Source: an uncultured Candidatus Poseidoniales archaeon (lineage in GTDB: Archaea; Thermoplasmatota; Poseidoniia; Poseidoniales; Poseidoniaceae). From it: a DNA stretch of 39,607 nt. The stretch spans positions 1 through 39,607 of the forward strand of contig CAJJCM010000014.1 of the NCBI GenBank assembly GCA_905182635.1, in the 5' to 3' direction. Shown in pieces: positions 987-36,593 of the stretch. A program made the translations under genes and the position numbers. How positions within the stretch are numbered: position 1 is the first letter of the stretch; every line of letters begins with the position of its first letter. The notes below the pieces were generated by a model. That model was not told where the DNA came from. It saw only the letters and a program-made list of their open reading frames with translations, and did no database searches.

Positions 987-1025
987 GGTGCACTTACCAG
1001 TGGCTCCAATCACTTGGGTGGGGCT

Positions 1026-1853
1026 ATGCGAAGGAGCACATTTTCCGTACGTTCCGGAGTGGTGCTCGTACTTACGATATTGCTGTTTGTCCCCGGTTTT
1101 ACTTCTTCGCTCCACACGGGCGTTGGAGGAGCACAAGACAATGCTGGCGAAACAATAGATGACGTCGCCAAAGAAGGCTGTCTTTGCCACAATGGCGCAG
1201 CGGATAATTCCGTCCAAATCATTCTTGATGACGTGCCTTATGGCTGGATTGGTGGAGAATCCTACTCCTTGAAACTCCAAATCATTGGCGGACCTGCAGC
1301 CACAGGAACCTACACCGCAGGATTCGCGATGCGCACATCAGCCGGCATCCTTTCCGGTGATGGTTTGCAAAATTGGGAGGACGATGTTACGACCCTCACG
1401 CACACTGCTGCAACTGCAGATGAGCCTGAACGTATGTGGACGTTCACATGGCAAGCACCTGAATCGGACTCCGGCACTGTAAATTTCTGGATTACCGGCA
1501 ACTCGGTCAACGGCGACCAACTCAACAACGGCGGCGGTGAAGAAGACAAGTGGAATCAATTGCTGTTCTCTTTGCAAGAAGGAAGCGATACGACTTCTGC
1601 ACTTGGAACTCGAACATTGTTTGCTGGCGATGGTAATGTAAGCCCTCCACAACCTGAATCCCATGGCGTTGACCTTGAGCACATGGGTGCAGAACTTCGC
1701 GCTCATTGGCTTGGATTACTTGGCTTTGGTGCAGTTATTTTAGTCATCGTATTTGCAGGACTCATGCTCCGATACAGTTTCTCAACTTCATATTCCGGTC
1801 GAACAAATCAATTGCGACTGCGCTACAAACTGATGCGACGAGGTGACCAGTGA
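1026..1853 (+). CDS. Secreted, C-terminally anchored protein with C-x-C-H motif (choice-of-anchor-V/reelin-like)
   Basis: A 275-residue protein. Residues 1-30 form a signal peptide (basic start, then GVVLVLTILLFVPGF). A Gly-Cys-x-Cys-His motif (C52, C54, H55) follows at once. The body is a beta-rich extracytoplasmic domain, and one membrane helix (about 228-249) precedes a short basic tail. The cysteine motif and architecture resemble choice-of-anchor-V/reelin-like surface proteins. The motif is C-x-C-H and not the C-x-x-C-H of covalent haem c, so cytochrome function is not established. The ATG at 1026 is chosen over the TTG at 1014 because GGTGGGG lies just upstream. It is the first gene of the Rieske/cytochrome b operon and its stop codon overlaps the next start. 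That position suggests an outer subunit or electron-carrier docking role, which is inference. Confidence 0.8.
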   Translation: MRRSTFSVRSGVVLVLTILLFVPGFTSSLHTGVGGAQDNAGETIDDVAKEGCLCHNGAADNSVQIILDDVPYGWIGGESYSLKLQIIGGPAATGTYTAGFAMRTSAGILSGDGLQNWEDDVTTLTHTAATADEPERMWTFTWQAPESDSGTVNFWITGNSVNGDQLNNGGGEEDKWNQLLFSLQEGSDTTSALGTRTLFAGDGNVSPPQPESHGVDLEHMGAELRAHWLGLLGFGAVILVIVFAGLMLRYSFSTSYSGRTNQLRLRYKLMRRGDQ

Positions 1854-2296
1854 TGGACGATACAATCACCACCCTGCTGCGTAAGGTCGCAAGTGGAAAA
1901 GTCAGCGTTGAAGATGCAAGGGTTGCCCTTGAAGATGCTTCGTTAACCGAAGACCAGATGCAATCAGCCATCGACCATGGCGTATTCAACCTTGCAGAAT
2001 CTGGAACCATTGTCAATGCTTCACTCGCTCCTTCTGGTGCTTCCAACCTCATTATGATCTTCTTCGCATGGGGCCTTTTCTGGTCATTCTATTGGGTCTT
2101 CTCGATGATTTATGGTCTTGCAAAGGGCTGGGACCAACAACAACTCTCCTACCATCTTGCAATGATGCTGATCACCCTTTGTTTAATGGGAATGGCTTAC
2201 CTTAAGTTCGTCTTACCCGACACGATTATTGTTAAGCATGGAATGAATAAGTTCGTTCCTGAGCATCCAAAAGATTGGAAGGAATACAAGTGGTGA
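1853..2296 (+). CDS. Small two-helix membrane protein of the Rieske/cytochrome b operon
   Basis: A 147-residue protein. About 60 residues of soluble N-terminus (helical, acidic, with an EDARVALEDASLTEDQM stretch) precede two membrane helices (about 65-90, very rich in W and F, and 103-123). A short charged tail rich in K, W and E follows. The start ATG overlaps the upstream stop (TGATG), and GAGGTGA lies 7-13 bases upstream. I do not recognise a family. Because it sits between the surface protein and the Rieske gene with a 6-base gap, it is probably an accessory subunit or assembly factor of this complex. That role rests on position alone. Confidence 0.75.
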   Translation: MDDTITTLLRKVASGKVSVEDARVALEDASLTEDQMQSAIDHGVFNLAESGTIVNASLAPSGASNLIMIFFAWGLFWSFYWVFSMIYGLAKGWDQQQLSYHLAMMLITLCLMGMAYLKFVLPDTIIVKHGMNKFVPEHPKDWKEYKW

Positions 2297-2302
2297 TGAA
2301 CT

Positions 2303-3151
2303 ATGGCACGTGATTACGACCTCAAACCAGCGCCTTCGTCAGAGGGGAGTTCGGACGTGAACCCAGGCTCATCCATCAACCGCCGGCAATTTTTGCACTA
2401 TGGATTTAATACTGCCACCGGCGTTTTGGCCGCATCCTTAGGCGTGCTGGGTTTTGCATCGATTCTCTTGCCACCTGGTGGCTCAGTCGAGGGTGAACTC
2501 AGTGTCAAATACTGGGCCAAAGGCCGGGAAGATACCGCTTGGTATGGAGCAAAACATGAACAATTGATGACACATCAAGATTTTGTTGATGAAGCTGCAA
2601 AATCCAACACTGAAACTTCCGGTGCATCTGGCATTTGGAACGGAGTCCCTGTTGTGGTCGCCTATGTCAACCACTCCAAATACGCCAACACCCCGTTATC
2701 AAACGGCAAAGCACGATTCCAATTCACCGAAGGCGTAGATGAAACTGGAAAAACCATCGGTCACTTTGAAGACTTGAGTGACACAGACCCTCGGCTTCTA
2801 CCTTCGAAAAATTTGGTCATGATTTTTGCTCGTTGCACACACTTGTGCTGTATTCCGGGTTGGCAATTGGTCTCGAACTCCTTTACTGAAGATTCGTGGA
2901 CCCCCGGTGGTGGAGACGACGGTGGCACCAAACTGTTCTGTATTTGCCACTCATCTCGTTTCGACCCTACGGTTCTTGAAATGAATACCAACCGAAACCG
3001 TTCAAACGGTACGACCTTCAAATACGCAGGTGTTCGGCGAGCAGGTGGCCCTGCTCCAGTCGGACTTCCAATCATTCCAATTGAATTGAATGCTGAGGGT
3101 GTTATCGAGGGCCTTGTAGACTATCTTGATTGGTACACATATTGTGACTGA
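2303..3151 (+). CDS. Rieske [2Fe-2S] protein
   Basis: A 282-residue Rieske subunit that would take electrons from quinol at the outer site of the cytochrome b complex. A twin-arginine-like segment (NRRQFLHYGF, 26-35) precedes one membrane helix (about 38-56), typical of Tat-inserted Rieske proteins. Cluster box 1 is C178-T-H180 with disulfide Cys at 183. Box 2 is C213-I-C215-H216. All four cluster ligands and both disulfide cysteines are present. The residue between the box 1 Leu and the disulfide Cys is normally Gly but here is Cys (C182), giving an unusual CTHLCC. A long insertion rich in Gly and Asp separates the boxes (about 190-210). It lies 6 bases after the small membrane protein and 11 before cytochrome b. 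Confidence 0.96.
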   Translation: MARDYDLKPAPSSEGSSDVNPGSSINRRQFLHYGFNTATGVLAASLGVLGFASILLPPGGSVEGELSVKYWAKGREDTAWYGAKHEQLMTHQDFVDEAAKSNTETSGASGIWNGVPVVVAYVNHSKYANTPLSNGKARFQFTEGVDETGKTIGHFEDLSDTDPRLLPSKNLVMIFARCTHLCCIPGWQLVSNSFTEDSWTPGGGDDGGTKLFCICHSSRFDPTVLEMNTNRNRSNGTTFKYAGVRRAGGPAPVGLPIIPIELNAEGVIEGLVDYLDWYTYCD

Positions 3152-3162
3152 GGTGATTATGT

Positions 3163-4029
3163 ATGACGACAATGTTCTGGATTCTTTGGTTTTTCATAGC
3201 CTTTGTAGTGGTGCTCGTCGCCCTGACACTTCGTCAAGAAAGCAGCGATATGCCTCGACGAGAAATTCTTCGAGCAGTTGAGTCAACTGGCAAAATGGGC
3301 TTTGCCGAACGTTTGTTCTTGTGGGTATTCTCTTGGCTTGATACTCGTTTCCGCCTTCAAGACTATTGGAATATGTCAAAAGGTTCCTATTACAACATGC
3401 ATCGACAGATGCCTTTGTCTCACGCTGAAAAATACAAACTTAGAATCATTTGGTATTGGTACCCCTTGTATTGTTTGGGCGGTATCTCCTTCCTTTCGTT
3501 CATTATCTTGATTCTCACTGGAACAGTCCTCGGAATCTACTATGTCCCTGGTGGAGAAGGTGACCCTTCTCCTGCTTACGCAAGTATGCAATTCATCATG
3601 ACTGAACTCCCCTTCGGCTACATTATTCGTGCCGTTCACCATTGGGCGACTCACTTCATGGTCGCCAGTGTATTCCTCCATATGTGTCGCGTCTATTTCA
3701 CCGGGGCATACCGCAACCCCCGTGAACTGAACTGGCTCATTGGTGTGGCATTGATGGCCTTAACCATCGTCTTTGGTTATTCAGGCTACCTCTTGCCATG
3801 GGATTCATTAGCTTACGGTGCCGCCGTTATTGGAATCAACTTGGCAAATTCAAGCCCATTGATAGGGAAGTACGCTGCCACTTTACTCTTCGGCGGTTCA
3901 TCTTTGACTGCGCAAACGGTGACTCGGATGTATTTCATACACGTCTTTATCCTCCCTGTGATTGTAACGACATTGATCATTATTCACTTATTTATTGTCT
4001 GGGTACAAGGCATTGCAGAACCACATTGA
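3163..4029 (+). CDS. Cytochrome b, N-terminal half (b6-type)
   Basis: A 288-residue diheme cytochrome b. The paired haem ligands are visible: H159 and H173 (14 apart, in a RAVHHW...FLHMCRVYFTGAY context) and H260 and H275 (15 apart). This is the b6-type spacing. The PRELNW motif follows the second helix, and a GYSGYLLPWD stretch (about 205-214) matches the quinol-site region. It corresponds to the b6 half of a split cytochrome b; the C-terminal half is in the next gene. It has an extra N-terminal membrane helix (about 4-22) and an approximately 70-residue lead before the amphipathic segment, absent from plain b6. The start at 3163 is backed by GAGGTGATT immediately upstream. Confidence 0.96.
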   Translation: MTTMFWILWFFIAFVVVLVALTLRQESSDMPRREILRAVESTGKMGFAERLFLWVFSWLDTRFRLQDYWNMSKGSYYNMHRQMPLSHAEKYKLRIIWYWYPLYCLGGISFLSFIILILTGTVLGIYYVPGGEGDPSPAYASMQFIMTELPFGYIIRAVHHWATHFMVASVFLHMCRVYFTGAYRNPRELNWLIGVALMALTIVFGYSGYLLPWDSLAYGAAVIGINLANSSPLIGKYAATLLFGGSSLTAQTVTRMYFIHVFILPVIVTTLIIIHLFIVWVQGIAEPH

Positions 4030-4046
4030 TATTCGGAGGATAATAC

Positions 4047-6875
4047 ATGGGACTAATTGAGAATTTCGGACGTGTGGCTTCTTCCTATATGGAAGAAAAA
4101 GAGCAATTGCAAACGGTAGAAGGAAAGCGAACCCGTACTCGCACAGGACATGGTTTCTGGCCACACGAAGTTCTTCGTGACACGATACTGCTTTCATTCA
4201 TGACTGCTGTACTTCTGTTCTATGCATGGTTGATACCACCACCACTTCACGGTGCCGCTGACCCCTATGCGCAAGCAGGATTCGTGTTCCCAGATTGGTA
4301 TGTGTTGTTCTCGTATGGATACTTGCGTTGGGGCGAATATCTCCCTCAATTTACAGTTCCAACTGGATTCATTGGCGAAATTGTTGGCCAACCAGTCTTC
4401 CCTTGGAACGCAGCATGGTGGGGAGCAGCACTCACTGGTATTCCAGTCAGTATCCTTGCTCTACCGCCGTTCCTTGGAGGACGTGAAAGGCGGCCTGTTG
4501 AAGACCCCTGGTTTGCTTCTGCCGGTGCAGTATATTTAGCACACATCTGGTTTATTTCTGTCTTTTCGATCAATATTTTCCTCGAACTCTATGCCAAAAA
4601 TCGTTCAGACTATTGTAAACTCGATAGCCATGGCGATTTGTTATGTGGTACTCGTGAACCTTGGGTCGCTGACGCCTTCAATACGATACCGTGGGTCATG
4701 ACCGGCGTACTCGTTTGGATATGCATCTATTTCTTGGCTCGTGGCTTGATCGTCAAAGCATGGGGTGCTGGATTCAAACCAAGTCATGCAAAGCAAATCC
4801 TCATTGGAACACTCTTGATATCCACTGCTGGAACTGTTGCTACATGGGATACCTATAATGATGGCTTTTGGGACCAAGGCGGATTGCTTACAATCAAGGG
4901 GTTAACACATGATTACTACCCCGAATTGGAAGCAATGCGTACACAACCAACCGATGTACATGTACATGAAACTAACGAATTCACCGATGACCGAGGCTGG
5001 AGCGATTTAGAAACCGTACCAACGACTGCTTGGATGGATTGGGTGATATATCAGCCGGCTCGTTACATTATCATAGACTTTAATGATGACAATGGACATC
5101 AAGATGCTGCCAACGGAATCAATGCTGCAGCAGATGCGACTGTATTCAATGGCGGTGAAGGATGGGCCACAACTGGTTCGTTTACTGTAACTGAAGATTT
5201 GTCCTTATTCCCTGATGGTCATCATGAAAGTGTAGAGACCCTTACGACTGACCTCAAATGTGAATACCGTTCTTCAGAGCGAAAAATCAACGATGTCGCA
5301 ACGGCAAGTATGGTCACCTCGACCTTGACTGTGACCAACAGCAACGGTGCTATTGTTTCTTCACTCGACAATTGCCTCAGTGCTACCGTCGAATTAGCGG
5401 TTGGAACCTACGATTACACCTATTCAGTTATCGCCAGTGGCGCTCTTGCGCTCAACAACAGTATCCAAACTGAAACTTCTTTCGCTATCGCTTCTTTCCA
5501 GCCACTCTTGGTCTGGAATGAAGATGCACCGGCCTCACTTGCAGGCATGACTGTCAATCTTTCAAATACTGAAGAAATGGCAATGGGTGGAACACAATTC
5601 GCTGCAATTGAAAATCCAACCTATCACACCAATCCAAAGGCACTTGATGCCAAACTCACTTATGCAATGTTCATTCCTTGTTTGACATTCGGTGCAATGG
5701 TCTTCGTCTTCCTACGTTCAATGGGTCGTGGCTATGAGTTCGAAATGAACAAGTGCTATGGCTGTGACTTGTGTGACGATGCTTGTCCTGTTCGATTGTT
5801 TAACGGTGGAGACAAACTCAATATCATTTACAACTCCTGGAACAATGAAGATGATGGTGTACCTTTGTATTCCTGTTTGACCTGTACAGCGTGTACCAAT
5901 GCTTGCCCACAACTGGTTGATTACGACTCATATGTTGATATTCGCCGTTCACTGATTGTCGGTGGACCACAAGCAGAAATCGCACACACAGTATTACAGG
6001 CAGTACTCGCTGCTGAAGCAGAAGAATCTGCAAATGAAGACTTCGTGGCTATCAAAGACTATCCATTGTCTTCAAACATTGGATACTACCCTGGATGTGT
6101 CGATTATCTCGACCAAGAGATGGTATTCTCGCACGTCAATGAAGGTGAGATGAACCTCGGCGATGCGACAACTTCAGCATTCACCCTCTTCGACGAAATG
6201 GAAATGGATGTATCTTACCTCGGACGTGACTTCTTGAAGTGCTGTGGTCACGACCAAAAGTGGCAAGGACTCGATGAAGTGTTTGACAAACTCAAGGCCT
6301 ACAACCAAAAGAAGATCGTCGAATCCGGTATTGACACACTTGTGTCATCATGTGCTGAATGTTTCCGAACCTTTGCTCGTGACTACGAACTTGAAGGCGT
6401 TAAGGTCATGCATACAACTGAGTTCTTGATTGAAAACGGATTTGACATGAACCTCAAAGCCGAAGAAGAAACAACCGTCACCTACCACGACCCATGTCGT
6501 CTTGGGCGCCAAATGGGAGTCTATGATGAACCAAGACAACTTATTGCTGATGTCGAAGGTGTAAAAATCGTCGAGATGGAACACCATGGTGAAGATGCAA
6601 TGTGCTGTGGTGTCTCAAGTATGATGTCATGCAATGAAAACGCTCGTTCCCTCCGTGTAACTCGCATGGAAGAAATTCGTGCCACAGGTGCTGACACAAT
6701 GTTGACTTCTTGCCCGAAATGTGTAGCACACTTTGAGTGTCTCAAGTTTGAAGGTGATGAGCGTTACGAAGATATTGAAATTCTCGATGTCGTCTCGTTC
6801 CTTGCCCGTCAAGTCGAAGCAAAGAAAGCAAGAGCGACCCCTGAATCAAGTTCAGTTCTTGAAATCGAAGCTTAA
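4047..6875 (+). CDS. Fusion: cytochrome b C-terminal half + outer domain + two [4Fe-4S] motifs + two CCG domains (HdrD/GlpC-like)
   Basis: A 942-residue multidomain protein. Residues 1-270 resemble b6f subunit IV/cytochrome b C-terminus, with PDWY at 82-85 (the quinol-site PEWY equivalent) and about five membrane helices. Residues 270-535 are a soluble, beta-rich insertion predicted outside the cell. A membrane helix (about 537-557) with a basic flank returns the chain to the cytoplasm. Two ferredoxin-type motifs begin at C570 and C610 (CxxCxxCxxxCP). Two complete CCG domains follow: C684-x47-C732-C733-x35-C769-x2-C772 and C817-x35-C853-C854-x34-C889-x2-C892. Such domains occur in HdrB/HdrD, GlpC, LldE and SdhE and can hold non-cubane clusters. 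The chain could pass electrons between a cytoplasmic donor or disulfide and the quinone pool inside the cytochrome b core. The direction is unknown. It is the last gene of the operon, 17 bases after cytochrome b. Confidence 0.92.
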   Translation: MGLIENFGRVASSYMEEKEQLQTVEGKRTRTRTGHGFWPHEVLRDTILLSFMTAVLLFYAWLIPPPLHGAADPYAQAGFVFPDWYVLFSYGYLRWGEYLPQFTVPTGFIGEIVGQPVFPWNAAWWGAALTGIPVSILALPPFLGGRERRPVEDPWFASAGAVYLAHIWFISVFSINIFLELYAKNRSDYCKLDSHGDLLCGTREPWVADAFNTIPWVMTGVLVWICIYFLARGLIVKAWGAGFKPSHAKQILIGTLLISTAGTVATWDTYNDGFWDQGGLLTIKGLTHDYYPELEAMRTQPTDVHVHETNEFTDDRGWSDLETVPTTAWMDWVIYQPARYIIIDFNDDNGHQDAANGINAAADATVFNGGEGWATTGSFTVTEDLSLFPDGHHESVETLTTDLKCEYRSSERKINDVATASMVTSTLTVTNSNGAIVSSLDNCLSATVELAVGTYDYTYSVIASGALALNNSIQTETSFAIASFQPLLVWNEDAPASLAGMTVNLSNTEEMAMGGTQFAAIENPTYHTNPKALDAKLTYAMFIPCLTFGAMVFVFLRSMGRGYEFEMNKCYGCDLCDDACPVRLFNGGDKLNIIYNSWNNEDDGVPLYSCLTCTACTNACPQLVDYDSYVDIRRSLIVGGPQAEIAHTVLQAVLAAEAEESANEDFVAIKDYPLSSNIGYYPGCVDYLDQEMVFSHVNEGEMNLGDATTSAFTLFDEMEMDVSYLGRDFLKCCGHDQKWQGLDEVFDKLKAYNQKKIVESGIDTLVSSCAECFRTFARDYELEGVKVMHTTEFLIENGFDMNLKAEEETTVTYHDPCRLGRQMGVYDEPRQLIADVEGVKIVEMEHHGEDAMCCGVSSMMSCNENARSLRVTRMEEIRATGADTMLTSCPKCVAHFECLKFEGDERYEDIEILDVVSFLARQVEAKKARATPESSSVLEIEA

Positions 6876-6919: not shown

Positions 6920-7660
6920 ATGGATTACGACAGCATGACTGTTTTGGATCTCAAAAACTTATGCAAGAATCGTGGGATACGAATCTCCGGTAACAAAGCA
7001 GAAGTGGTCATCCGATTGATGGAAGATGATGAATCCTCAGCCCCACCACAACAATTTCAAATCCCTCAACAGTCAATTCCACAGCACGTCCAAGGTGGTT
7101 ATGCACCTGCACAAACAATCTATGTCAAGAAGGAAGATGAACTCGCATCTGGAATTGGGACATGTATCATAATTTATGCAATCTTTCGATTGTTTTGGGC
7201 GGTTATATTTTCAACTGGGGGCGGAGGAGCAGAGGCTTGGTTACTCTCTCCAGTAGCCTTCTTGTTAGGTATCGGTTTTTTAATTGGAGGCGTCATTACC
7301 TATTCTGGTTATCGGAATGGAGTCTATATCACACTTGCGGTCCTCGCACTCTCGGGCTTATTTAGTGTAGCATTTCACGGAGACGAACCAAACCCTGTAT
7401 CCATCGCTTGGGGTGAGGAAATGATCATGACTTCACTCATGTGCTCATTTACTTGTATGATTCTTGTAGCTTTGCCGTTAATGCTTTCGAAACTCAAAGG
7501 CGGATGGCCAATACCAATTGAAAATCTCTTGGACAGAAACCAGTCGACGGACGGTAAGAAAAAGATCAAGTGCCAATCATGTAAGGAGGAATTACAAATT
7601 CCAATCGGTTACTCTGGAAACATTGAATGTCCAACCTGCCACTCAAAGATGAATGTTTGA
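6920..7660 (+). CDS. SAP-domain membrane protein with C-terminal zinc ribbon
   Basis: A 246-residue protein. Residues 1-38 match a SAP helix-turn-helix (MTVLDLKNLCKNRGIRISG, then KAEVVIRLMEDD), a fold usually linked to nucleic-acid binding. A proline/glutamine-rich linker (about 39-70) leads to four predicted membrane helices (about 78-96, 105-130, 133-153, 168-190). The C-terminal 31 residues carry two CxxC pairs (CQSC at about 218 and CPTC at about 237), a zinc-ribbon pattern. The cellular role is unknown. It starts 44 bases after the respiratory fusion, and an AT-rich CTTTATTATTC in that gap may be its own promoter. It is convergent with the next gene, with stop codons one base apart. Confidence 0.85.
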   Translation: MDYDSMTVLDLKNLCKNRGIRISGNKAEVVIRLMEDDESSAPPQQFQIPQQSIPQHVQGGYAPAQTIYVKKEDELASGIGTCIIIYAIFRLFWAVIFSTGGGGAEAWLLSPVAFLLGIGFLIGGVITYSGYRNGVYITLAVLALSGLFSVAFHGDEPNPVSIAWGEEMIMTSLMCSFTCMILVALPLMLSKLKGGWPIPIENLLDRNQSTDGKKKIKCQSCKEELQIPIGYSGNIECPTCHSKMNV

Positions 7661-7961: not shown

Positions 7962-8294
7962 TCATCGATCAATCATTGTGATGGCATCAGTTGGGCATGC
8001 TAAAACACACAACCGACAGCCTGTACATTCAACACGTAGAATTTTGGCTTTTTGATTTGATTCGACTTTAATCAAAGGGCTTGCCATGGGAACTTTGTAC
8101 ATCTCGATGGCATCGTCATCACAAACAATGGTACATTGGTCACAACCAATGCATAAGCGTTCTTCAACAAAGGCAACAGTTGTCTCACCACCTTTGATGG
8201 AAGCGCGTTGTTCACCTCGTTGCCTGTTGAGTGAGGTACGAATGCGAACAGCCTCTTGTTCTCGACGCTTTCGCAACTCGTCGGAGGAGGTCAT
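7962..8294 (-). CDS. Ferredoxin with two [4Fe-4S] clusters
   Basis: A 110-residue iron-sulfur protein. A basic helical N-terminus (about 1-35) precedes two complete cluster motifs: C48-x2-C51-x2-C54-x3-C58 and C90-x2-C93-x2-C96-x3-C100. About 30 residues separate them, as in low-potential 2[4Fe-4S] ferredoxins and ferredoxin-like subunits. The first motif ends in CDDDA where CP is usual; the second has the usual ACPTDA. The ATG at 8294 overlaps the stop of the upstream membrane protein gene (ATGA), suggesting coupled translation. The electron partner is not visible. The N-terminal extension and its place between two membrane proteins suggest it may dock at the membrane, which is inference. 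Confidence 0.93.
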   Translation of the reverse strand: MTSSDELRKRREQEAVRIRTSLNRQRGEQRASIKGGETTVAFVEERLCIGCDQCTIVCDDDAIEMYKVPMASPLIKVESNQKAKILRVECTGCRLCVLACPTDAITMIDR

Positions 8295-27502: not shown

Positions 27503-30500
27503 TCATCGAGAAGGAATCCCAGCAAGAGTTGAGATTTCTTGTGCCATTCGTTCTAAAGCATGTTGGGCAGCGACTTGATGTTGTTGACCCATTTCATCAC
27601 GACTGTAACGTGCCTGTTCAAACATGTTATCGAGAGCAAGTAACGCTTCCTCAGAAATTTGAGGCATTGCTTGACGAATCGCCATCTCGAATTCACGAAC
27701 TGTTTCGAAATCACGACGCAAGAATCCATGTTCTTGGAATGAAGCACAAAGATTCTGGTAACAGGTGAAGATTGCTTCACGAATCGAGTCACCAGCGGCT
27801 AACAACTCCGCAGTATAGGCAAATATCTCTGCTGCTTCTTTCATCAACTCAGAGGATTGGCGTCGGCGGTAGAGTACTGTACCTGCACCTGCTAATCCAA
27901 TGATGAGAAGGGTGAGAATGTAGGCCCATGCAGGGATTTCAGTCGCTGCTTCTTGATATTCATACGATGGTGCAAACGAGTCACTGGATTGCACAGCAAA
28001 ATCAGCCAACGTTTGTTCCGAGAGACGTGGATCATTGATGATAATCTCCATGTATAATTCGCCCCAAGCATCTGCATCACCGTATGGAGGGTCCGAATTG
28101 AAATCAAATTCTGCAACACCATCAATATTGGTTCCAGTGAGAGGTTGCTTTGGATCTGAGAGTTGAGTTCCATTCTTATCATAGAGATAAATCGTCACCG
28201 TAATGCCATTTACCTCTTGGAGGGTATCTTTTGCTGTGATTGTGATACTGCCTCCGATGTTCTCTTGCTCTCCTTCGATAATATCGTCGAGTGAGACTAA
28301 AATATCCGCATTTATCTTAACAAAGATAAGATGATAGACACTTGCAGTATTAAGGAAATGTGTATCATGCCGAGGTGTTTCCAAATGCAAGTATTGAGAA
28401 CCAGGATTCAGGAAAGCAGGCGCAGTCGTCGTGAGTGAAAAGTTTCCATTCGACCAATCAATAACAAGGTCTTCAAGACAGCGGGAACCATCCTTTTGAG
28501 CCATACAATTCGAGCCGTTTCCAAGATACAGCGTTACGTTGTCAAACACTTCACCCAGTCCGCCAATTTCAGAGACTGAACCCGTCAATACGATTGGAGC
28601 AAAGGTTGAATCGGAACGGACGACGATGTTCGAAGAGGTTGCATCGATGGTGATTTTGACATTTGCCCATACCGTTGCAGTACCCGTTGCTTGAGCCCCT
28701 AGATGTGCTTCAGTCCCTTCAAAGTAGATGGTAAAGATATGATTGCCACGAGCTAAATCCGAAGTAGCCGGCACAAGTGTTGACCAACTACCATCATCTC
28801 CTGTAATGAGTGTAGCAATCTCGACATCATCTAAGCGTAGGCTGAGGTCCATTCCACTCAAACCGTCGTTATTGACGGAGTCAATGTCAAACAGTCGACC
28901 AGACAGTGTCCAGAGGTTACCTCGAGTTGCGTCTTTGCCATCATCAAAGATGAACGTCACATCAGAACGATGAGCCAAGAAGAAAGATGTGTTACCCGAG
29001 TTCGAACGGTAGTATCCTTGAGCATCAGCGTTTGCAAATAAGGTATGGTTTCCAAAACCAAAGGTGTCAGGTACATTCCAGTCAAAGGTGAATCTACCTT
29101 CAGCGTCAGTCTCAATGGTAGCAATGATGAGTCCTTCTACTTCCAAGTCCACGATGTGGCCCGAAACTCCAGTGAGTTGGTTATCGACAACGCTACCAGT
29201 AATGGTCGTGTTTTGACCAACAGCAACTGGGCTTTCCATAGAGACGGTGATAAGAATTGGGCTGTATACAGTCCATGTCCCTGAAGCATTACTCGGCAGA
29301 TAGAATGTTGTGCCGGTGAAGCGAATCTCAAGGGTGAGAGGGCCAAGTTGTGCATCAGCAGGTACCGGATAGACTGCAGTAAAGAGACCTGTTTCATCGG
29401 TGCTGACGTTGGTCATCCACTGTCCATCAAGCCAAACTTCCACAGTGAGGTTTGTCAAAGGTGCGTCAACCAAATCCAGTAGACGACCTTGTAGGGTCAT
29501 CGTTGCTTCCCGGTCAACTGTACCACTTGGGGTCAAAAGAAGAATCTTGGTTGGAACGCTGACATTGAAGTCAACTTGGGCACCGCTTGGGAGATAGAAA
29601 TCTGGGTTTGCAGGGTCACCAACACCAACTGGGTCAACCCAATCGCGTCCACCAAGGAACCGAACTTCAATCAAGTGAGCTCCTGCAGAAGTTTCCTCAG
29701 GCAAAGTCCATCCAATCGAATAGTTCCCAGTCAATGCGTCAGTTTCAACACTGGATACTGGAATTCCATCGACAAGAAGATGGACAATGGCAAGCGAAGA
29801 GACGCCATCAATGGTCAGCGTTTGGTTGAGGTCATCCAACAATGTTCCTTGAACTGTGAATGAGTCGCCTGCTACAAGTGTCGAAGGAGATGCTGTAATC
29901 ACCATATTTGTTTGTGCGAGCACAACGAATTGTGTCGATGCATTCGAACCGATCAAACCTGTTGTGCCAGGCGTTCCCGCAAAGGTGACTTCAAGGTCGT
30001 TGAAGCCAATACTTTGGTTACTCGGAACGGTAAGAATACCAACTGCTGTTCCGTTGGCAAAGGTCGTGAGTGTGAGACTTACATCAGTTCCAATGAGTGT
30101 CACGACGACTTGTTGTGCTGCAACTGCAGACATGGTATTGTCGCGCAGTAGAATTTGAATCTGAACATCGTTACCACGTTCGGTTCGGTCATTCAAAGAC
30201 GGCGAACCAAGGCCATCGAGTGTCGGTTGAACAAATATGAGTGTTGTGAATCCTCGACTATCGAATGTCGTATTATTGGTCGAACCAATATAGTAATTGA
30301 CGTTTGGAACATAAGAGGCTTCGAGTGTATTGTTACCGGCTGCGAATCCTTCTCCAAGGAGAATTGTCGCTGACCAGAATCCACCTGCTACGACTGAACC
30401 GCCTGTTACAGAAAATCCGGTAGGTTGGCCATTAAGACTGAACAATATATTCGAGGGTAAAACGCTTCCATCGCGCTGTTCAAGTCCACTTCCATTATCG

Positions 30501-33500
30501 CTGAACACGCTACCTGTGACGTTGAATGAAGTTCCAGCAACTGGATTCGCTGCAAGAGGGTCAACAATCATGAACGTAATTGAGCGAATGGTAATCGATG
30601 AAAGGTTCACTTGAGTATTCAACAAGTCAGATGAACCATTGAAGACCAAAGAAACGACAATCAAACCAAGTGGATGTGTCATTGGAATTTGATGGCTAAA
30701 ATTTGCATATCCTTCGCCATCCGTCTGGGTGCCTGCCAACCATGTTTCATGGAATTGGATGTCAACATCAAATCCAGATAATGGTCCAAAGCGATTGGAG
30801 GATTCGAGTAAACGCCCCGTGAGGTTGATGGTATCTCCACGATTAACAGTCACTGGATTGAGTGGTTGAAGATTGTCAAACTGACTTACACCCATCACCA
30901 AAATTCCGTTCTGCGAAGATGCTGTAAGATAGAAGGGTGATGAACCTTCATTGACGCTCAATACCAGAATTTTGTTACCACGTTCAGTGCCGTTGCCGGA
31001 AGTGTCGGTTGGAATGCTTATGTTGAATGTACCATTCGAAGAGGTAAGATAGGATGTTACCAAAATTTCATCAGGGTTATTCAACCAGAATGCCGACATT
31101 TCAACCGGGGTTGTAAGAAGGCGTGAGGTATTATCTCCGTCGAGGACTTGACCCAACACATTGAAATTCAATCCTGCAGTTGTGACGGTTGGAATACTAT
31201 CGATTCGAATCTCACTTGGAACCTGAACGGTCACATTGACAAGAGATGAATTCCCTGTGCGGCGTGAGTTTCCTTGGCCAAGTCCGTCGGTCAAATCGTC
31301 ATACACGATCACCAATACATCATAATAGCCGGGTGCAATGCCAACTGCGTTCCATTGAAGAGTAGAATTTCCTTCAGCATCTGTGATATCAAGACCCAGT
31401 GACACATTGGTATTCCCCCAATCAAAGATGTATTGAACAGTGGCATCCGATACATTTGATTTATCGGCAACGTCGGTAACTTTGGTATTGAAGTCGAGTG
31501 TCTGATTGACTTCGACGATCAATGACTCTCGATCTGGTTCGACGACAAACTCCGACTCAATCCCAACAAGTGTAGAGGGGAGAGTTGGAGTTGCAGGTGG
31601 AACGGCATTGTCCACCATTCGGAAATATGCGCCACCAACAGGTGCCATTGTGTCAAAATCCATATTGAGAATAAATTCGTACGAATCAGAAGGACGGGTC
31701 GTTGGTATGGAGAAATTCAGAACAAAACTTCCTGTCGAGTTGTTCAATAATCCTTGGGAAAGGTCAATTGGCATACCATCGGGTGTCATCATAATAATAG
31801 AAAGCATAGTGATATTATCGCCAAGAACGCTAATATTTGTGTACTGGGCATCGAAAATATCTCCATACAGGTAACTCGAATTTCCTAAGTGCGTCCAATC
31901 TTGGCCGAGGCTCAAATTCCAAGCGACTTCTGCCGCAACGCGCAACATGCTGTTGCCGGTCGATGACTGATACAGTTCTGAACCGTTGAACGAAATCTCA
32001 AACAAATAATCACCGGCGAAGAGGGTCGAATCAATCAACCAGTTGATGTTCATTGTTTCACTCTGTGGGTCGGCGGTTGTATTGACCCAATTCCCGTTAA
32101 AGAAAAAGTCAAAGTCACCGGAGAGGAGGAGGTCTGTTGAAACGCCACGATGGTCGATTGCAGTGATTAATACACTTGAATCGGTGCCTCTTAATTGAGC
32201 AGAGGCTTGAACTTGGAAATCGAGGAAGCCGCGTAGGAGGTAAGGCCCACCAGCAGTGACATTCGCATCATCGGTCGCCTCGATAGCGTTCGGGAAAAAC
32301 CGAATCTGAATTTCGAGAATACCTGCCATGACTTGCGCATCAGCAGCAGTGAGTAAATATTGGATGCCAAATGGTCCGCTCACGCTGAGGTTAAACACTT
32401 GAACCCATTCCTGAGAAGTACCGTTTTCTCGAATCGAGAATGAAAGATTACCGGGCATGGCAACAGGAGATGCCCCTGTCGTCATTACTGAACCATTCAC
32501 CCAGAGATCATCGTTCAGAAGGATGATACTTTTGTTTGTCAGGGGCCCCTCAAGAGTGGCCGTCAGATTTGGCGCATCACGAACATCAATGACAATCGAG
32601 AGTGACGATGGCCTCAAATGGAATTGAGTTGGTGTAATTCCTGGGGCTTGCGTATCTTGCCACCCAGAGAAGCCGAGTGTTGCAGACAGATTTGTTTTGG
32701 TTTCAAGAGGGTCAAGATTCAAATCGAAACTCCATGTACCATCGATGTTGATGAAACTACTCAGGTTGGTAAAGCCGTTAACTGATGAAGTAAACGACAA
32801 CCAGACAGCTGGGGGAGTCAAATCATTGACGCCAATATTCTCAATATTATTCGTTGGGCCATTTTCCAAGGAGAGCACTCCTTCAATGATGGTCAAAGCA
32901 CCGGCACCAGCAATTGGAGCATTGATGGCATTCGGGCCAGTGTGGTTGAGTACAGAGTCCTCTGTAACGTTGATGTATCCCTCATAAATTATACCGGATT
33001 CAGCGACATATCCGGATTGAGTGAGTTTGATTACCACTCGATACATACCTGGACCATCCAGTTCCGGAGGAGTTCCGTTGAAACTAAAAGTCCCATTAGG
33101 AAGAGTGATGCCTGAACCAAAATCAAAGTTTGGAATTGCCCCTTGCCCAGGTACTTCATTTTGTAGAGCCATAGGGACGAGGTATCCTATAAGTGGGAGT
33201 TCTGAAATTGAAGTCAAGTTTTCTGAGTAACGCAAATGCCCAGTCACGTTGAGTAATGTGCTTCCATCTCGGTCAAATGTCAAGGAAGAAATGGTCTGGT
33301 TGACTATTTCAATTTCTTCAGCAGGTGGACAAGCATCGAACGCAATCCAGCCAAGGTCAGTGTCTCCATTGGCTGGGTTTTGTTGCAATCGCACTTCACC
33401 CCAAGTCGAACGATGAGTTGGATAAACTGAATAACCATCACCGTTCCAGATACCACCGGAATAACCAGTCACTTTTCGAGCAGGTAAACCTGCAAGGCGA

Positions 33501-36475
33501 GCCATGGTCACGAATACTGTGTTAAATTCAGAACAAGTACCTTCAAGCACTGCTTGAATCAATGTTACGCTCAAATCCTCCGAAGATGGAATTCCAGAGC
33601 CGTTATAATTCCGCTTGAAATCAGTGGTTGCATTTCCGTTCGTTAGGAATTCTTGCAGAGCCGTTGCACTGTCATATGCATTGGTTGTACCTGCTTCAGT
33701 AATAACGGCGGTCGTGACGTTGAGGAGGTAGGAATGTGGGTGGGTGGGGTCATAGAAGGTGGTCGGTAAAAGCAACTCATAAACGGAGTTTGCCCCAGGA
33801 ACCGAAGTTGATGCGAGTGTTGCCCAATCGAAGTAGTATTCAGGCTGTAGAACATACGCTTCTTGGATTGGTCCAGTGATCACTTTGACATTATGTGTGT
33901 CATTTGAGCGCTGTAACTCTCCTGCAAGGTCAACATAAAACGATAAGTTCGAGAATGAATCAGGAACGGGAAGGTTTCCCGAAATGGGCGGGTTCCGGTA
34001 AGTCATCATCCAGTCAAGTGTTTCATTTGAAAAGGTGATGTCCGCTAAGTGCGTCATATTGGATGATGGAAGTACCATCGTCTCGAAAGGATGAATATCT
34101 TCGAGGTGGGCATAAGTGGTACCGGTATAGAAATCGTTCGTAGTTTGGCGCCATCGGTGAACCAAATCAGTGTCGACGACACCAGAGGTGTTGTTTGCCC
34201 AAAATACGACTTCGGATGACATTACATCGTCGGTCGGGTCGAAAGGGTTGAAAGGAGAACCAATGCAACCGACAACCCAGAACTCGGGTAAGCATTCCAA
34301 ACCATCGATCATTCCGCCACCATCGGTATCGGGGTTGGTCCAATCGGTACCGGTTAAGTTTTCTATCGCGTCCGGTATTTCATCGCCATCAAAATCGGCT
34401 GGCAATAAGTCATCCAGTGGGTTATTTTCAGGATTGGTACCGTCAAAGTATTCATCTCGGTCTCCAACACCACCGGCATCGGTATCACTCAATATATCAT
34501 CGGTAACCCAAACATCTGTCGAGCCGTTAAGGATTCCAATCCACGAAAGGTCGCAACCTGTGGTCGTCTCAAAATAATTGTTTAAACCATCCAAATCATC
34601 GTCCAGGAGATTAACACAAGGTTCATTTGGATCGGTGTTATCGAAGACTTCATCGAAATCACTCACACCATCTGCATCGGTATCGGCAAGTGTAGGGTTC
34701 GAGAACCAACCGAATGTTCCGAGCAACTCTTGCCAATCTGCAAGGCCATCGGAATCGGAATCGGTATAATCATCATCACAATATTGTTGAGTGGTACCAA
34801 TCGTTCCACTGTTTGTTGCCGATGTATGGCAGAATGAACCGTTACGATTTGAGGCTTGCGTCACCCCACCCGTTGGGCCGGAAGATACACCTTGTATGGC
34901 ATTATTCACCACACCAGCATAAGCAAAAGCGACCCAAATACCCGAAGTATTGTACCATCCGACTCCACCACTTGGGTTGAAACCAGAACCATTTGCAACT
35001 TGGAGCTGATTGTTACCCGTACTCCAAGACACAATGGTCGTTTCGAAATTGATTAAGGAGTCACAAGGGTCTGTTCCGTGGGACACATTACGTTCATCAC
35101 CATCGCTGATTCCACCGAAGTCGGTATCTGCGATATCCCACGTGGTGCAAGATAAGTTTTCTTCCCAATTTTGAATCCCATCATTATCTTCATCACCAGA
35201 ATCTTCCATTCGAGTTGGGTCAGTTTCACCAGGATCCAGAACTCCGTTGAAGTTGATATCTTCCTCGCCATCATCAAATGCATCACCGTCTGTGTTGTTG
35301 TTTCGAGGGTTACTGGCTTGAGGGGGATTTCCGTAGGCTCCATTGACTTCAACACCGTCACTGATTCCGTCACCGTCTGTATCAGAAGCCGTTGGGTCGG
35401 TTAAGAGGGTCAATGCTTCATAGGAGTCGTTTAATCCGTCACCATCGGTATCTGCGCGCTGTGGATTTGTACTTGTGATTCCATCGACTTCAGCAGTAGA
35501 GGTAGCACAGCCACCTGGTCCAATTCCGGCAGCAGGATTGCACGGTGAGATCGTTTCGGTAACCGCTCCATCTGGGCCATTGCGGAAACAAGGTGATGTA
35601 CCACACATAGTGGTCCATGATGGATTGACGTATTCCATGAGGTTGATGAGACCATCACCGTCAGGGTCACCATTTGGCCCATCGGCATTGGAAGGTGAAG
35701 TTGCATTGAGACCGTTTGCTGCTTCCCAACCATCGTCCATTCCGTCGCCGTCAGTATCCCATCCAGCCACGTCTTCGTCGGCAATACCGTCGCCGTCATC
35801 GTCGTTTGAAGAACAATCAGCGTCGCCGTCATTATCTGAATCTGCAGAATCTACAAAACCATCTTTGTCATCATCAAAGCCGTTTGCACAGATGTTTCCA
35901 ACGGGATCTTCATCACAAAGAATCACACTGCCAGTTCCATCAGAGCCACTGTCGCCACAGCCAGGTCGGTTGTATTGCAGGGCGTTTTCTTCATCCCAGT
36001 CATTGACTGGCACTGTACCGTTCCACCAAACGCCGAGGTCAAGAACACCTGGAGTCGAGGAACTGTCCCAGTTTTGAGGTTGTAAGTAAGAATATTCTTG
36101 CAGGTTCGACATCCCATCTCCATCGGGGTCTCCAACTGCACCATCTCCACCGCTACTCGAAAGAGGGTCGAGTCCGTAGAGCCATTCCCAACCATCGGGC
36201 AATCCATCGTTATCAGAATCAGGGTCATTGGGAGCTGTATTCATGAGGTATTCCAAACCATACGTCAGACCATCTCCATCTTGGTCAGAAGCCGCTCTGA
36301 CATCAATCGAAATATACGGGATTGCGGCGAAGGTCGAGAGGAGCATCAAGGCTGCTAACAACAATGATTTAGAGGCGTTACGATGCTGCAGAATCTGCAA
36401 TTGGAAGCGCGGCTCGGAGGGAGAAACAGTCGTGCGCATAGGATTCACTGTTGTCGGGCTGGTTTGATGCCTCAT
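27503..36475 (-). CDS. Giant surface protein: calcium repeats, transglutaminase-like domain, Ig-like repeats, membrane anchor, DUF4129-like tail
   Basis: About 2990 residues. A signal peptide (core LLLAALMLLSTFAAIPYISI, about 31-50) is followed by many Asp-rich loops (DTDGDGLxDxxE) over about 58-765, expected to bind calcium. A transglutaminase/protease-like domain has Cys981 (GTCSEFNTVFV), GLPARKVTGYSGG and Asp1047 (GWIAFDAC). The usual His two before the Trp is Ser1023 here (S-T-W); the nearest His is 1021. About a dozen Ig-like units of some 90-100 residues fill about 1070-2830, rich in N-x-S/T. One membrane helix (about 2846-2868) precedes a cytoplasmic DUF4129-like domain (about 2870-2985, ending in a FEQARYS pattern). 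Transglutaminase and DUF4129 pair in TgpA-type proteins. The start is uncertain: 36475 or 36439 both give a signal peptide. Confidence 0.87.
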   Translation of the reverse strand: MRHQTSPTTVNPMRTTVSPSEPRFQLQILQHRNASKSLLLAALMLLSTFAAIPYISIDVRAASDQDGDGLTYGLEYLMNTAPNDPDSDNDGLPDGWEWLYGLDPLSSSGGDGAVGDPDGDGMSNLQEYSYLQPQNWDSSSTPGVLDLGVWWNGTVPVNDWDEENALQYNRPGCGDSGSDGTGSVILCDEDPVGNICANGFDDDKDGFVDSADSDNDGDADCSSNDDDGDGIADEDVAGWDTDGDGMDDGWEAANGLNATSPSNADGPNGDPDGDGLINLMEYVNPSWTTMCGTSPCFRNGPDGAVTETISPCNPAAGIGPGGCATSTAEVDGITSTNPQRADTDGDGLNDSYEALTLLTDPTASDTDGDGISDGVEVNGAYGNPPQASNPRNNNTDGDAFDDGEEDINFNGVLDPGETDPTRMEDSGDEDNDGIQNWEENLSCTTWDIADTDFGGISDGDERNVSHGTDPCDSLINFETTIVSWSTGNNQLQVANGSGFNPSGGVGWYNTSGIWVAFAYAGVVNNAIQGVSSGPTGGVTQASNRNGSFCHTSATNSGTIGTTQQYCDDDYTDSDSDGLADWQELLGTFGWFSNPTLADTDADGVSDFDEVFDNTDPNEPCVNLLDDDLDGLNNYFETTTGCDLSWIGILNGSTDVWVTDDILSDTDAGGVGDRDEYFDGTNPENNPLDDLLPADFDGDEIPDAIENLTGTDWTNPDTDGGGMIDGLECLPEFWVVGCIGSPFNPFDPTDDVMSSEVVFWANNTSGVVDTDLVHRWRQTTNDFYTGTTYAHLEDIHPFETMVLPSSNMTHLADITFSNETLDWMMTYRNPPISGNLPVPDSFSNLSFYVDLAGELQRSNDTHNVKVITGPIQEAYVLQPEYYFDWATLASTSVPGANSVYELLLPTTFYDPTHPHSYLLNVTTAVITEAGTTNAYDSATALQEFLTNGNATTDFKRNYNGSGIPSSEDLSVTLIQAVLEGTCSEFNTVFVTMARLAGLPARKVTGYSGGIWNGDGYSVYPTHRSTWGEVRLQQNPANGDTDLGWIAFDACPPAEEIEIVNQTISSLTFDRDGSTLLNVTGHLRYSENLTSISELPLIGYLVPMALQNEVPGQGAIPNFDFGSGITLPNGTFSFNGTPPELDGPGMYRVVIKLTQSGYVAESGIIYEGYINVTEDSVLNHTGPNAINAPIAGAGALTIIEGVLSLENGPTNNIENIGVNDLTPPAVWLSFTSSVNGFTNLSSFINIDGTWSFDLNLDPLETKTNLSATLGFSGWQDTQAPGITPTQFHLRPSSLSIVIDVRDAPNLTATLEGPLTNKSIILLNDDLWVNGSVMTTGASPVAMPGNLSFSIRENGTSQEWVQVFNLSVSGPFGIQYLLTAADAQVMAGILEIQIRFFPNAIEATDDANVTAGGPYLLRGFLDFQVQASAQLRGTDSSVLITAIDHRGVSTDLLLSGDFDFFFNGNWVNTTADPQSETMNINWLIDSTLFAGDYLFEISFNGSELYQSSTGNSMLRVAAEVAWNLSLGQDWTHLGNSSYLYGDIFDAQYTNISVLGDNITMLSIIMMTPDGMPIDLSQGLLNNSTGSFVLNFSIPTTRPSDSYEFILNMDFDTMAPVGGAYFRMVDNAVPPATPTLPSTLVGIESEFVVEPDRESLIVEVNQTLDFNTKVTDVADKSNVSDATVQYIFDWGNTNVSLGLDITDAEGNSTLQWNAVGIAPGYYDVLVIVYDDLTDGLGQGNSRRTGNSSLVNVTVQVPSEIRIDSIPTVTTAGLNFNVLGQVLDGDNTSRLLTTPVEMSAFWLNNPDEILVTSYLTSSNGTFNISIPTDTSGNGTERGNKILVLSVNEGSSPFYLTASSQNGILVMGVSQFDNLQPLNPVTVNRGDTINLTGRLLESSNRFGPLSGFDVDIQFHETWLAGTQTDGEGYANFSHQIPMTHPLGLIVVSLVFNGSSDLLNTQVNLSSITIRSITFMIVDPLAANPVAGTSFNVTGSVFSDNGSGLEQRDGSVLPSNILFSLNGQPTGFSVTGGSVVAGGFWSATILLGEGFAAGNNTLEASYVPNVNYYIGSTNNTTFDSRGFTTLIFVQPTLDGLGSPSLNDRTERGNDVQIQILLRDNTMSAVAAQQVVVTLIGTDVSLTLTTFANGTAVGILTVPSNQSIGFNDLEVTFAGTPGTTGLIGSNASTQFVVLAQTNMVITASPSTLVAGDSFTVQGTLLDDLNQTLTIDGVSSLAIVHLLVDGIPVSSVETDALTGNYSIGWTLPEETSAGAHLIEVRFLGGRDWVDPVGVGDPANPDFYLPSGAQVDFNVSVPTKILLLTPSGTVDREATMTLQGRLLDLVDAPLTNLTVEVWLDGQWMTNVSTDETGLFTAVYPVPADAQLGPLTLEIRFTGTTFYLPSNASGTWTVYSPILITVSMESPVAVGQNTTITGSVVDNQLTGVSGHIVDLEVEGLIIATIETDAEGRFTFDWNVPDTFGFGNHTLFANADAQGYYRSNSGNTSFFLAHRSDVTFIFDDGKDATRGNLWTLSGRLFDIDSVNNDGLSGMDLSLRLDDVEIATLITGDDGSWSTLVPATSDLARGNHIFTIYFEGTEAHLGAQATGTATVWANVKITIDATSSNIVVRSDSTFAPIVLTGSVSEIGGLGEVFDNVTLYLGNGSNCMAQKDGSRCLEDLVIDWSNGNFSLTTTAPAFLNPGSQYLHLETPRHDTHFLNTASVYHLIFVKINADILVSLDDIIEGEQENIGGSITITAKDTLQEVNGITVTIYLYDKNGTQLSDPKQPLTGTNIDGVAEFDFNSDPPYGDADAWGELYMEIIINDPRLSEQTLADFAVQSSDSFAPSYEYQEAATEIPAWAYILTLLIIGLAGAGTVLYRRRQSSELMKEAAEIFAYTAELLAAGDSIREAIFTCYQNLCASFQEHGFLRRDFETVREFEMAIRQAMPQISEEALLALDNMFEQARYSRDEMGQQHQVAAQHALERMAQEISTLAGIPSR

Positions 36476-36593
36476 AAGGGAAATGGTGCGATGTTCATAC
36501 AATGCTTCATTTCGAGGGGGGGTGATGCACGTGGAAATTGGGAACATGAGTCTTGCAGCATGTCGTTTCTGGAAAGAAGTTCGCACGAAACTG

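Follow-up and report, generated by a model that had tools for sequence, protein, structure and literature searches.

A complex III subunit in Marine Group II archaea is fused to ferredoxin-type and CCG iron-sulfur modules and may carry a wired ferredoxin or flavodoxin port

Marine Group II archaea are abundant, uncultured archaea of the ocean. The stretch of DNA analyzed here (the window; 39,607 nucleotides, contig CAJJCM010000014.1 of assembly GCA_905182635.1) belongs to an uncultured Candidatus Poseidoniales archaeon whose genome comprises 1.33 Mb at 66.5% completeness. Translation of positions 4047 to 6875 of the forward strand gives a single 942-residue frame with zero internal stops, in which a membrane part resembling subunit IV of a Rieske/cytochrome b complex (complex III) is continuous with two 4Fe-4S motifs and two CCG domains. 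Sequence comparisons make it reasonably probable, in our view, that this fusion provides complex III with a wired port for ferredoxin or flavodoxin at the cytoplasmic quinone site, used mainly for electron entry. Its parts are as follows.

4047 to 6875, forward strand: the fusion, 942 residues, in the order subunit IV, outer domain, 2[4Fe-4S], CCG, CCG (translation, Pfam, 89 distinct orthologues)
4047 to 4847, forward strand: subunit-IV-like membrane part, residues 1 to 267, helices E to H plus a fifth span (hydropathy, structure model, profile match, PDWY at nucleotides 4290 to 4301)
4848 to 5648, forward strand: outer domain, residues 268 to 534, mainly beta strands, probably on the p side (hydropathy, model); absent from Marine Group III and from the L192 and L193 fusions
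5649 to 5720, forward strand: sixth membrane helix, residues ~535 to 558, which would return the chain to the cytoplasmic side (hydropathy peak at 537 to 555; model helix 533 to 572, low confidence)
5739 to 5921, forward strand: two 4Fe-4S motifs, HdrC/NuoI-like (Pfam, cysteine pattern, profile match)
6096 to 6362, forward strand: CCG site 1, with C684, C732, C733, C769 and C772, and Glu771 at the place of EtfD His583 (motif, alignment)
6495 to 6722, forward strand: CCG site 2, with C817, C853, C854, C889 and C892 (motif)

The PDWY motif of the Qo site occupies residues 82 to 85, and the 4Fe-4S cysteines lie at 570/573/576/580 and 610/613/616/620. CCG site 1 has the spacing C684-x47-C732C733-x35-C769xxC772 and CCG site 2 the spacing C817-x35-C853C854-x34-C889xxC892. 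An earlier reading of the window from its letters alone (the sequence-only reading) had described a 942-residue frame with PDWY, membrane helices, two 4Fe-4S motifs and two CCG domains, and the spacings obtained here are identical; the outer domain, which it put at ~260 residues, measures ~267 by the borders that we set (268 to 534). On the fusion, Pfam matched three Fer4 models and, in two stretches, CCG (E 8.7e-22), all above their cut-offs; the Pfam cytochrome-b C-terminal model was not among the matches up to E 0.1. A single-sequence search with residues 1 to 308 gave zero matches, and a profile search gave weak matches to b6f subunit 4 (2e74_B, E 0.0088) and to the C-terminal halves of QcrB (best E 0.001). 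Based on this profile match, the PDWY motif and the gene order, we call the N-terminal part subunit-IV-like.

In the standard bc topology, helix E runs from the n to the p side, and the PDWY loop faces the p side. Given the order of the helices and the position of PDWY, this topology predicts a p-side location for the outer domain and an n-side (cytoplasmic) one, next to heme bH and Qi, for the iron-sulfur half. The full-length structure model (pLDDT 56.6; the outer and CCG parts better, the membrane and 4Fe-4S parts poor) has helices at residues 39 to 62, 122 to 143, 154 to 186, 205 to 239, 245 to 265 and 533 to 572, which are compatible with six membrane spans and mostly of low pLDDT; the fifth span also gave a weak signal in the hydropathy scan. 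Residues ~360 to 490 are modeled mostly as beta strands (pLDDT mainly 62 to 89). The predicted outer parts contain conserved cysteine pairs, namely, C190 and C200 (both in 89/89 distinct fusions) and C405 and C443 (89/89 and 86/89). The split subunit of Marine Group III has neither the outer domain nor the two extra spans, and its C terminus would therefore end on the same side, in agreement with the topology predicted for the fusion.

The fusion is the fifth gene of a tight operon, preceded by four genes.

1014 to 1853, forward strand: the operon's first gene, encoding a membrane-anchored outer protein that has a C-x-C-H motif and a choice-of-anchor V domain (NF041895, E 5.4e-22, above the cut-off)
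1850 to 2296, forward strand: small protein for which two membrane spans are predicted, with a weak resemblance to DUF7318 (PF24002, E 7.8e-4, below the cut-off; hydropathy)
2303 to 3151, forward strand: Rieske iron-sulfur protein, CTHLC ... CICHS (TIGR01416, E 5.5e-10, below the cut-off; ligand motifs)
3163 to 4029, forward strand: cytochrome b6-type subunit with four heme histidines and Cys104 (nucleotides 3472 to 3474); closest solved relatives are cytochrome b6 chains

The Rieske, cytochrome b and fusion genes are separated by short gaps, and their order is kept in the loci of groups f1 and f2, which we term Marine Group II, and in split form in those of f3, which we term Marine Group III (the assignment is our own). 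Among 16 further Poseidoniia loci examined, an orthologue of the outer protein heads the operon in all 16 and the small membrane protein is present in 15. The ligands of the Rieske cluster (C.H.[CG]C and C.CH.S) were found in 78/78 distinct Rieske open reading frames (ORFs), PDWY in 89/89 distinct fusions, and each histidine pair for hemes bL and bH, at b6 spacing, in 62/64 distinct cytochrome b ORFs; the misses fall in two L167 fragments with unread bases and in a frame-shifted end in L138. Cys104 aligns with the YCLGG cysteine of b6, which we take to be the ligand of heme cn, and this cysteine is present in 43/43 readable Marine Group II cytochromes b and in 5/18 from Marine Group III. At a locus outside the class (L130), a cytochrome c (Pfam Cytochrom_C) occupies the place of the choice-of-anchor V protein; since it does, the protein at 1014 to 1853, with C-x-C-H rather than CxxCH, may be a degenerate or odd electron carrier.

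Matches to the fusion are spread through the class. At E 1e-40, it matched 186 of 194 genomes, comprising 169/173 from Marine Group II (the window's own counted) and 17/21 from Marine Group III. The collected loci contained 117 full-length fusion ORFs, 89 of them distinct, in which all eight 4Fe-4S cysteines and nine of the ten CCG cysteines are invariant and C733 is kept in 87. Mean column conservation across the 89 is 0.97 for the 4Fe-4S part, 0.89 for the CCG part, 0.85 for the membrane part and 0.64 for the outer domain. A scan of contigs kept 80 of 302 relatives, of which 78 have the fusion or its split form; L130 and the Marine Group III fragment L129 are the other two. These counts, like those of the partner gene given below, are of loci, with a few genomes represented twice (e.g., L079/L112, L078/L119, L081/L117 and L080/L124), and two loci labeled as bacterial (L115 and L173) are probably mis-binned.

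In Marine Group III, the fused parts are separate subunits. Re-searching ten of these genomes gave best operon matches on the CCG part and weaker, separate ones on the 4Fe-4S and subunit-IV parts. Their gene order (L077 to L081) is C-x-C-H protein, small protein (undetected in L079), Rieske protein, cytochrome b, subunit IV-2[4Fe-4S], CCG-CCG protein and RnfB-like protein; in L078, L079 and L081, the subunit IV with 2[4Fe-4S] has 351, 378 and 359 residues and the CCG-CCG protein 295, 298 and 295 residues, respectively. A break between the b and CCG parts in relatives, which the sequence-only reading had taken as grounds for abandoning its view, thus does occur, yet the two pieces are neighbors in the same operon, so the break marks the difference between separate subunits and a fusion. 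L130, from outside the class, has a 323-residue subunit IV with 2[4Fe-4S] and no CCG gene in the 8.1 kb covered.

The survey of spread covered Thermoplasmatota. In a sample of 389 genomes searched at E 1e-30, 140 matched, 11 of them outside Poseidoniia; three of the 11 matches span subunit IV and the 4Fe-4S part, and eight cover subunit IV only. Outside the class, loci L192 (genome G229) and L193 (G237) hold fusions of 789 and 606 residues without the outer domain; three of the five genomes sampled from their class have a fusion, the third (G242) ending at a contig edge. No ORF of at least 70 residues with a 4Fe-4S or CCG motif was found at any of the eight other Thermoplasmatota subunit IV loci (L195 to L202, 5.7 to 11 kb each), which argues that the iron-sulfur module is not general in the phylum. 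The subunit IV tails at these eight loci, of the type LN.NYY.VR, line up by eye with the start of the 4Fe-4S part, LNRCYQC...CPVR, and a gain or loss of the module may have taken place exactly there.

In a tree of 27 rows, the CCG modules of the window, L065, L070, L072, L077, L079, L192 and L193 form one clade (8 rows, 100/100), separate from the clade of EtfD-like proteins. L211 and L212 were dropped from this tree (the motif found no CCG ORF in them), ten of its forks are weak, two of its rows are long, and it carries a long-branch warning among the outer rows.

Downstream of the fusion lies a candidate partner.

7962 to 8294, reverse strand: RnfB-like 2[4Fe-4S] ferredoxin, 110 residues (TIGR01944, E 1.1e-11, best NCBIfam match, below the cut-off)

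We inspected 96 long loci, 72 with the fusion, 22 with the split form and two without the core gene. At 59 of the 72 fusion loci, an RnfB-like gene is present downstream, in the opposite orientation to the fusion in 45 cases and in the same orientation in 14; the 13 others comprise seven with less than 4 kb of sequence and six that have room for it. The gene was found at 19 of the 22 split loci, on the same strand, and the three misses all have less than 4 kb of sequence. In the window, a SAP-domain membrane protein (6920 to 7660) stands between the fusion and the RnfB-like gene; similar ORFs occurred in 1/16 Poseidoniia loci (L076) and in 9/80 loci of the contig scan.

The Marine Group III partners share a C-terminal 2[4Fe-4S] half and come with two types of N-terminal half. 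The half is zinc-ferredoxin-like in L080 (NF041165, E 5.6e-18, 65.6 bits against a cut-off of 280) and a flavodoxin in L079 (PF00258, E 7.5e-27, above the cut-off); these two were scanned for domains, and the remaining partners were sorted by sequence pattern. Seven contigs are of the flavodoxin type (L112, L113, L115, L116, L118, L120 and L114, with L129 from the same genome as L114), and seven are of the ferredoxin type (L117, L119, L122, L124, L125, L126 and L127), as is L077. This pattern suggests a swap of two equivalent low-potential carriers. Outside Poseidoniia, the gene that follows the L193 fusion matches HdrA2 (E 2.1e-17, far below the cut-off), starts in an HdrA-like manner, contains a ferredoxin motif and runs off the contig. 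Given the RnfB-like ferredoxin partner and the zinc-ferredoxin-like or flavodoxin domains of its Marine Group III relatives, ferredoxin-level chemistry is favored. The sequence-only reading had proposed a quinone-coupled redox machine in which electrons have an additional cytoplasmic entry or exit at the b core, and both the predicted topology and the partner gene at 59/72 loci lend support to it.

Genes of energy metabolism were surveyed in 40 Poseidoniia genomes, the window's own and 39 with completeness of at least 85%. The gamma subunit of 2-oxoacid oxidoreductases (PF01558) is encoded in 35 of the 40, the 49-kDa subunit of complex I (PF00346) in 39 and the NADH-binding 51-kDa subunit (PF01512) in 3. 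Given these counts, reduced ferredoxin is likely a main product of catabolism and would probably have to be re-oxidized by way of respiration. NADH is probably not the donor of complex I; Marine Group II is said to have canonical NADH dehydrogenases (PMC6336850).

In the arrangement that we favor, subunit IV of a Rieske/cytochrome b6-type complex III would carry an EtfD/HdrBC-like electron wire on the cytoplasmic side, with the probable order CCG site 1, CCG site 2, 4Fe-4S, 4Fe-4S and heme bH (plus heme cn where the b6 cysteine is present) at Qi. Ferredoxin or flavodoxin, as the low-potential carrier, would dock on the RnfB-like protein; electrons that 2-oxoacid oxidoreductases have passed to ferredoxin would run downhill to the quinone pool at Qi, and the quinol would be re-oxidized at Qo via the Rieske protein. 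More tentatively, we entertain a three-port cytochrome bc in which the Qi quinone is reduced partly by bH, with an electron recycled from Qo, and partly by ferredoxin or flavodoxin, with an electron that travels along the fused wire. If so, ferredoxin oxidation would occur inside the Q-cycle with extra charge translocation, and the complex would be a hard-wired form of the ferredoxin-quinone reductase that is still debated for b6f.

Several observations weigh against a ferredoxin or flavodoxin entry port. Both structure models are of low confidence (the second, of the split subunit, has a pLDDT of 53.7, worse than the full-length fusion). No RnfB-like gene was found in L132, L142, L151, L162, L175 and L177 despite at least 4 kb of downstream sequence, and at fusion loci the gene lies mostly on the opposite strand and therefore on a different transcript. 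In 13/18 cytochromes b of Marine Group III, a serine replaces the b6 cysteine, which means that the family as a whole cannot depend on heme cn. There was no PF01558 match in four of eight f3 genomes and in one f1 genome, and the match in a fifth f3 genome fell below the cut-off. Finally, in Marine Group II, the fifth site-1 cysteine (present in 87/89) is Hdr-like and Glu771 is not the histidine of EtfD, so these CCG clusters need not be mere relays.

The same anatomy can be read in reverse, as an electron exit in which quinol at Qo gives one electron to the Rieske protein and the other, via bL, bH and the iron-sulfur chain, to flavodoxin, ferredoxin or another low-potential acceptor; this would be bifurcation in a Q-cycle with a soluble acceptor, in which respiration powers the reduction of ferredoxin. 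HdrA is the bifurcating subunit of heterodisulfide reductase (Hdr), which gives weight to the HdrA-like gene next to the L193 fusion, and flavodoxin and ferredoxin as partner domains would also fit. However, reduction of ferredoxin from bH would be strongly uphill and would oppose the membrane potential, and the 2-oxoacid oxidoreductases of 35/40 genomes are already able to make reduced ferredoxin. We therefore regard electron exit as unlikely.

Disulfide or thiol chemistry, with the two CCG clusters as a catalytic site like that of HdrD or HdrB and electrons passing from or to quinol, had been suggested by the sequence-only reading. All five cysteines are present at both CCG sites in 87/89 Marine Group II fusions and in L192 and L193, the EtfD-type histidine cap is replaced by glutamate in 89/89, and HdrB chains are among the best Foldseek matches of the fusion model (EtfD, LutA and HdrB, presumably on the CCG part; racemase, fiber, GOLD-domain and virus matches were left unused). 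However, none of 19 distinct Marine Group III CCG proteins has both five-cysteine motifs: one site-1 ligand is missing in all 19 (CS in 15, CxxG in 4), as in EtfD, and the operon and partner are retained. This loss with operon and partner unchanged makes a catalytic disulfide role of site 1 unlikely for the whole family; the site probably holds a noncubane cluster of the Hdr type in Marine Group II and one that is EtfD-like or otherwise reduced in Marine Group III. In addition, the neighboring partner gene encodes a ferredoxin, not a thiol enzyme, and HdrB family models score far below their cut-offs (TIGR03288, 21.4 bits against 345.15). The disulfide suggestion is thus unsupported, and we consider it improbable, though less firmly so for Marine Group II, where 87/89 fusions retain the ligand.

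A flavin dehydrogenase could also feed the port, with an electron transfer flavoprotein (ETF) or a lactate-, glycolate-, glycerol-phosphate- or fumarate-type dehydrogenase as donor, as for EtfD, LdhH, GlcF, GlpC and TfrB. In NCBIfam, the iron-sulfur half comes closest to TfrB, LdhH and further CCG proteins linked to dehydrogenases, without reaching any of their cut-offs, and mycobacterial EtfD is the best solved relative by sequence (9ojn) and the top Foldseek match. EtfD is not known to have a Rieske partner. It is a heme-b protein of the membrane that feeds menaquinone and, like the fusion, has two 4Fe-4S and two CCG sites; according to PMC13083937, Thr539 takes the place of the second cysteine of site 1, where the cluster is a linear [3Fe-4S], His583 caps the site-2 cluster, and the chain leads to heme b and menaquinone in steps of ~8, 8, 9 and 7 Å. 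The fusion differs from it by aligning Cys733 (87/89) and Glu771 (89/89) with Thr539 and His583, so the EtfD signature of a non-cysteine and a histidine is absent, and by having a b6/subunit-IV core: in place of the five-helix heme-b domain of EtfD, it has a membrane part that resembles subunit IV and is encoded after a separate cytochrome b gene. The window's genome also encodes its own EtfD-like protein elsewhere (681 residues; L075:5671-7716, contig C27 of G000), with a membrane part, two 4Fe-4S and two CCG sites and the EtfD-like signs CSG and CPHC, where the complex III modules have CCG (87/89 in Marine Group II) and CAE. EtfD-like proteins are likewise encoded in eight f3 genomes (L042, L043 and L053 to L058, two ORFs being incomplete; signs checked in L075 and L053). 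These signature residues, the separate clade and the EtfD-like gene elsewhere in the genome rule out that the fusion is an EtfD orthologue, and all three also count against a flavin dehydrogenase donor. No ETF or dehydrogenase gene was noticed among the operon ORFs, in which no ETF-directed family search was made. A donor of this kind seems to us to have little likelihood. As for an assembly or frameshift artifact joining two genes, suggested by the two separate genes of Marine Group III, the 89 distinct full-length orthologues rule it out, and a full-length match occurs in the single-contig genome G060.

Several known systems come close to the one described here. HdrD has the same order as the fusion, a 4Fe-4S pair followed by a CCG pair, and HdrDE and HdrBC share the five-cysteine CCG motifs with the Marine Group II fusion; the present system differs from them in its Rieske-type cytochrome b core, its ferredoxin-type partner and the missing site-1 ligand in Marine Group III. 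With the Rnf complex, it shares a 2[4Fe-4S] protein that is RnfB-like below the cut-off. In Candidatus Angelarchaeales of the same phylum, hdrD-like and rnfB-like genes are described as proximal to complex III, and one sentence suggests ferredoxin entry there (PMC9038741), so the idea of ferredoxin entry via complex III is already in print for relatives. The loci described here likewise have CCG and RnfB-like proteins at complex III; the accessible text covers the two nearby genes and not a b-subunit fusion, Marine Group II or III, a comparison of split and fused forms or a ferredoxin/flavodoxin swap (PMC9038741). The plant b6f complex also has a b6-type cytochrome b with the YCLGG cysteine and a proposed n-side entry of ferredoxin electrons, as a ferredoxin-plastoquinone reductase activity at Qn; there, the donor is a protein distinct from the complex (ferredoxin or FNR), and its pathway is still debated (PMC11449013), whereas here the wire is part of subunit IV. 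Methanoperedens complex III has cytochrome c additions (PMC4683180). Term searches of the accessible text of three Marine Group II papers (PMC6461757, PMC6741140 and PMC9723583) found no mention of complex III or heterodisulfide; the first has one general line on the electron transport chain, and the second has an unrelated cytochrome and an unrelated ferredoxin. No description of subunit IV fused to 4Fe-4S or CCG domains was found in the literature searched, which is mostly open text rather than subscription papers.

Some other features were observed in passing. The subunit IV of G226 (L195:3494-5233, 579 residues) lacks iron-sulfur motifs but has a large insert, perhaps another outer domain, and the cytochrome b ORFs at L192:6586-8448 and L193:788-3613 carry N-terminal bacterial Ig-like (Big_5) domains. 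Outer domains thus seem to move between subunits, being on subunit IV in Marine Group II and on cytochrome b in L192 and L193. In the window, a repeat-rich ORF of 3036 residues (positions 27503 to 36613), in which a transglutaminase-like stretch can be made out by eye, likely encodes a surface protein.

For Marine Group II, RnfB has been reported as present and RnfACDEG as absent, and complex III has been called "MGII specific" (PMC6336850). That RnfB is presumably the RnfB-like gene beside complex III, which would offer an answer both to the lone RnfB, left open there, and to the "MGII specific" complex III. The fusion fixes in one polypeptide what the plant b6f debate concerns, the possible entry of ferredoxin electrons at the n-side quinone site (PMC11449013), and a heterologously expressed archaeal complex could allow a direct test of such entry. 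The natural exchange of ferredoxin for flavodoxin in the partner may reflect adaptation to iron supply. If complex III does carry a ferredoxin port, these archaea would have a second entry way for electrons beside complex I.

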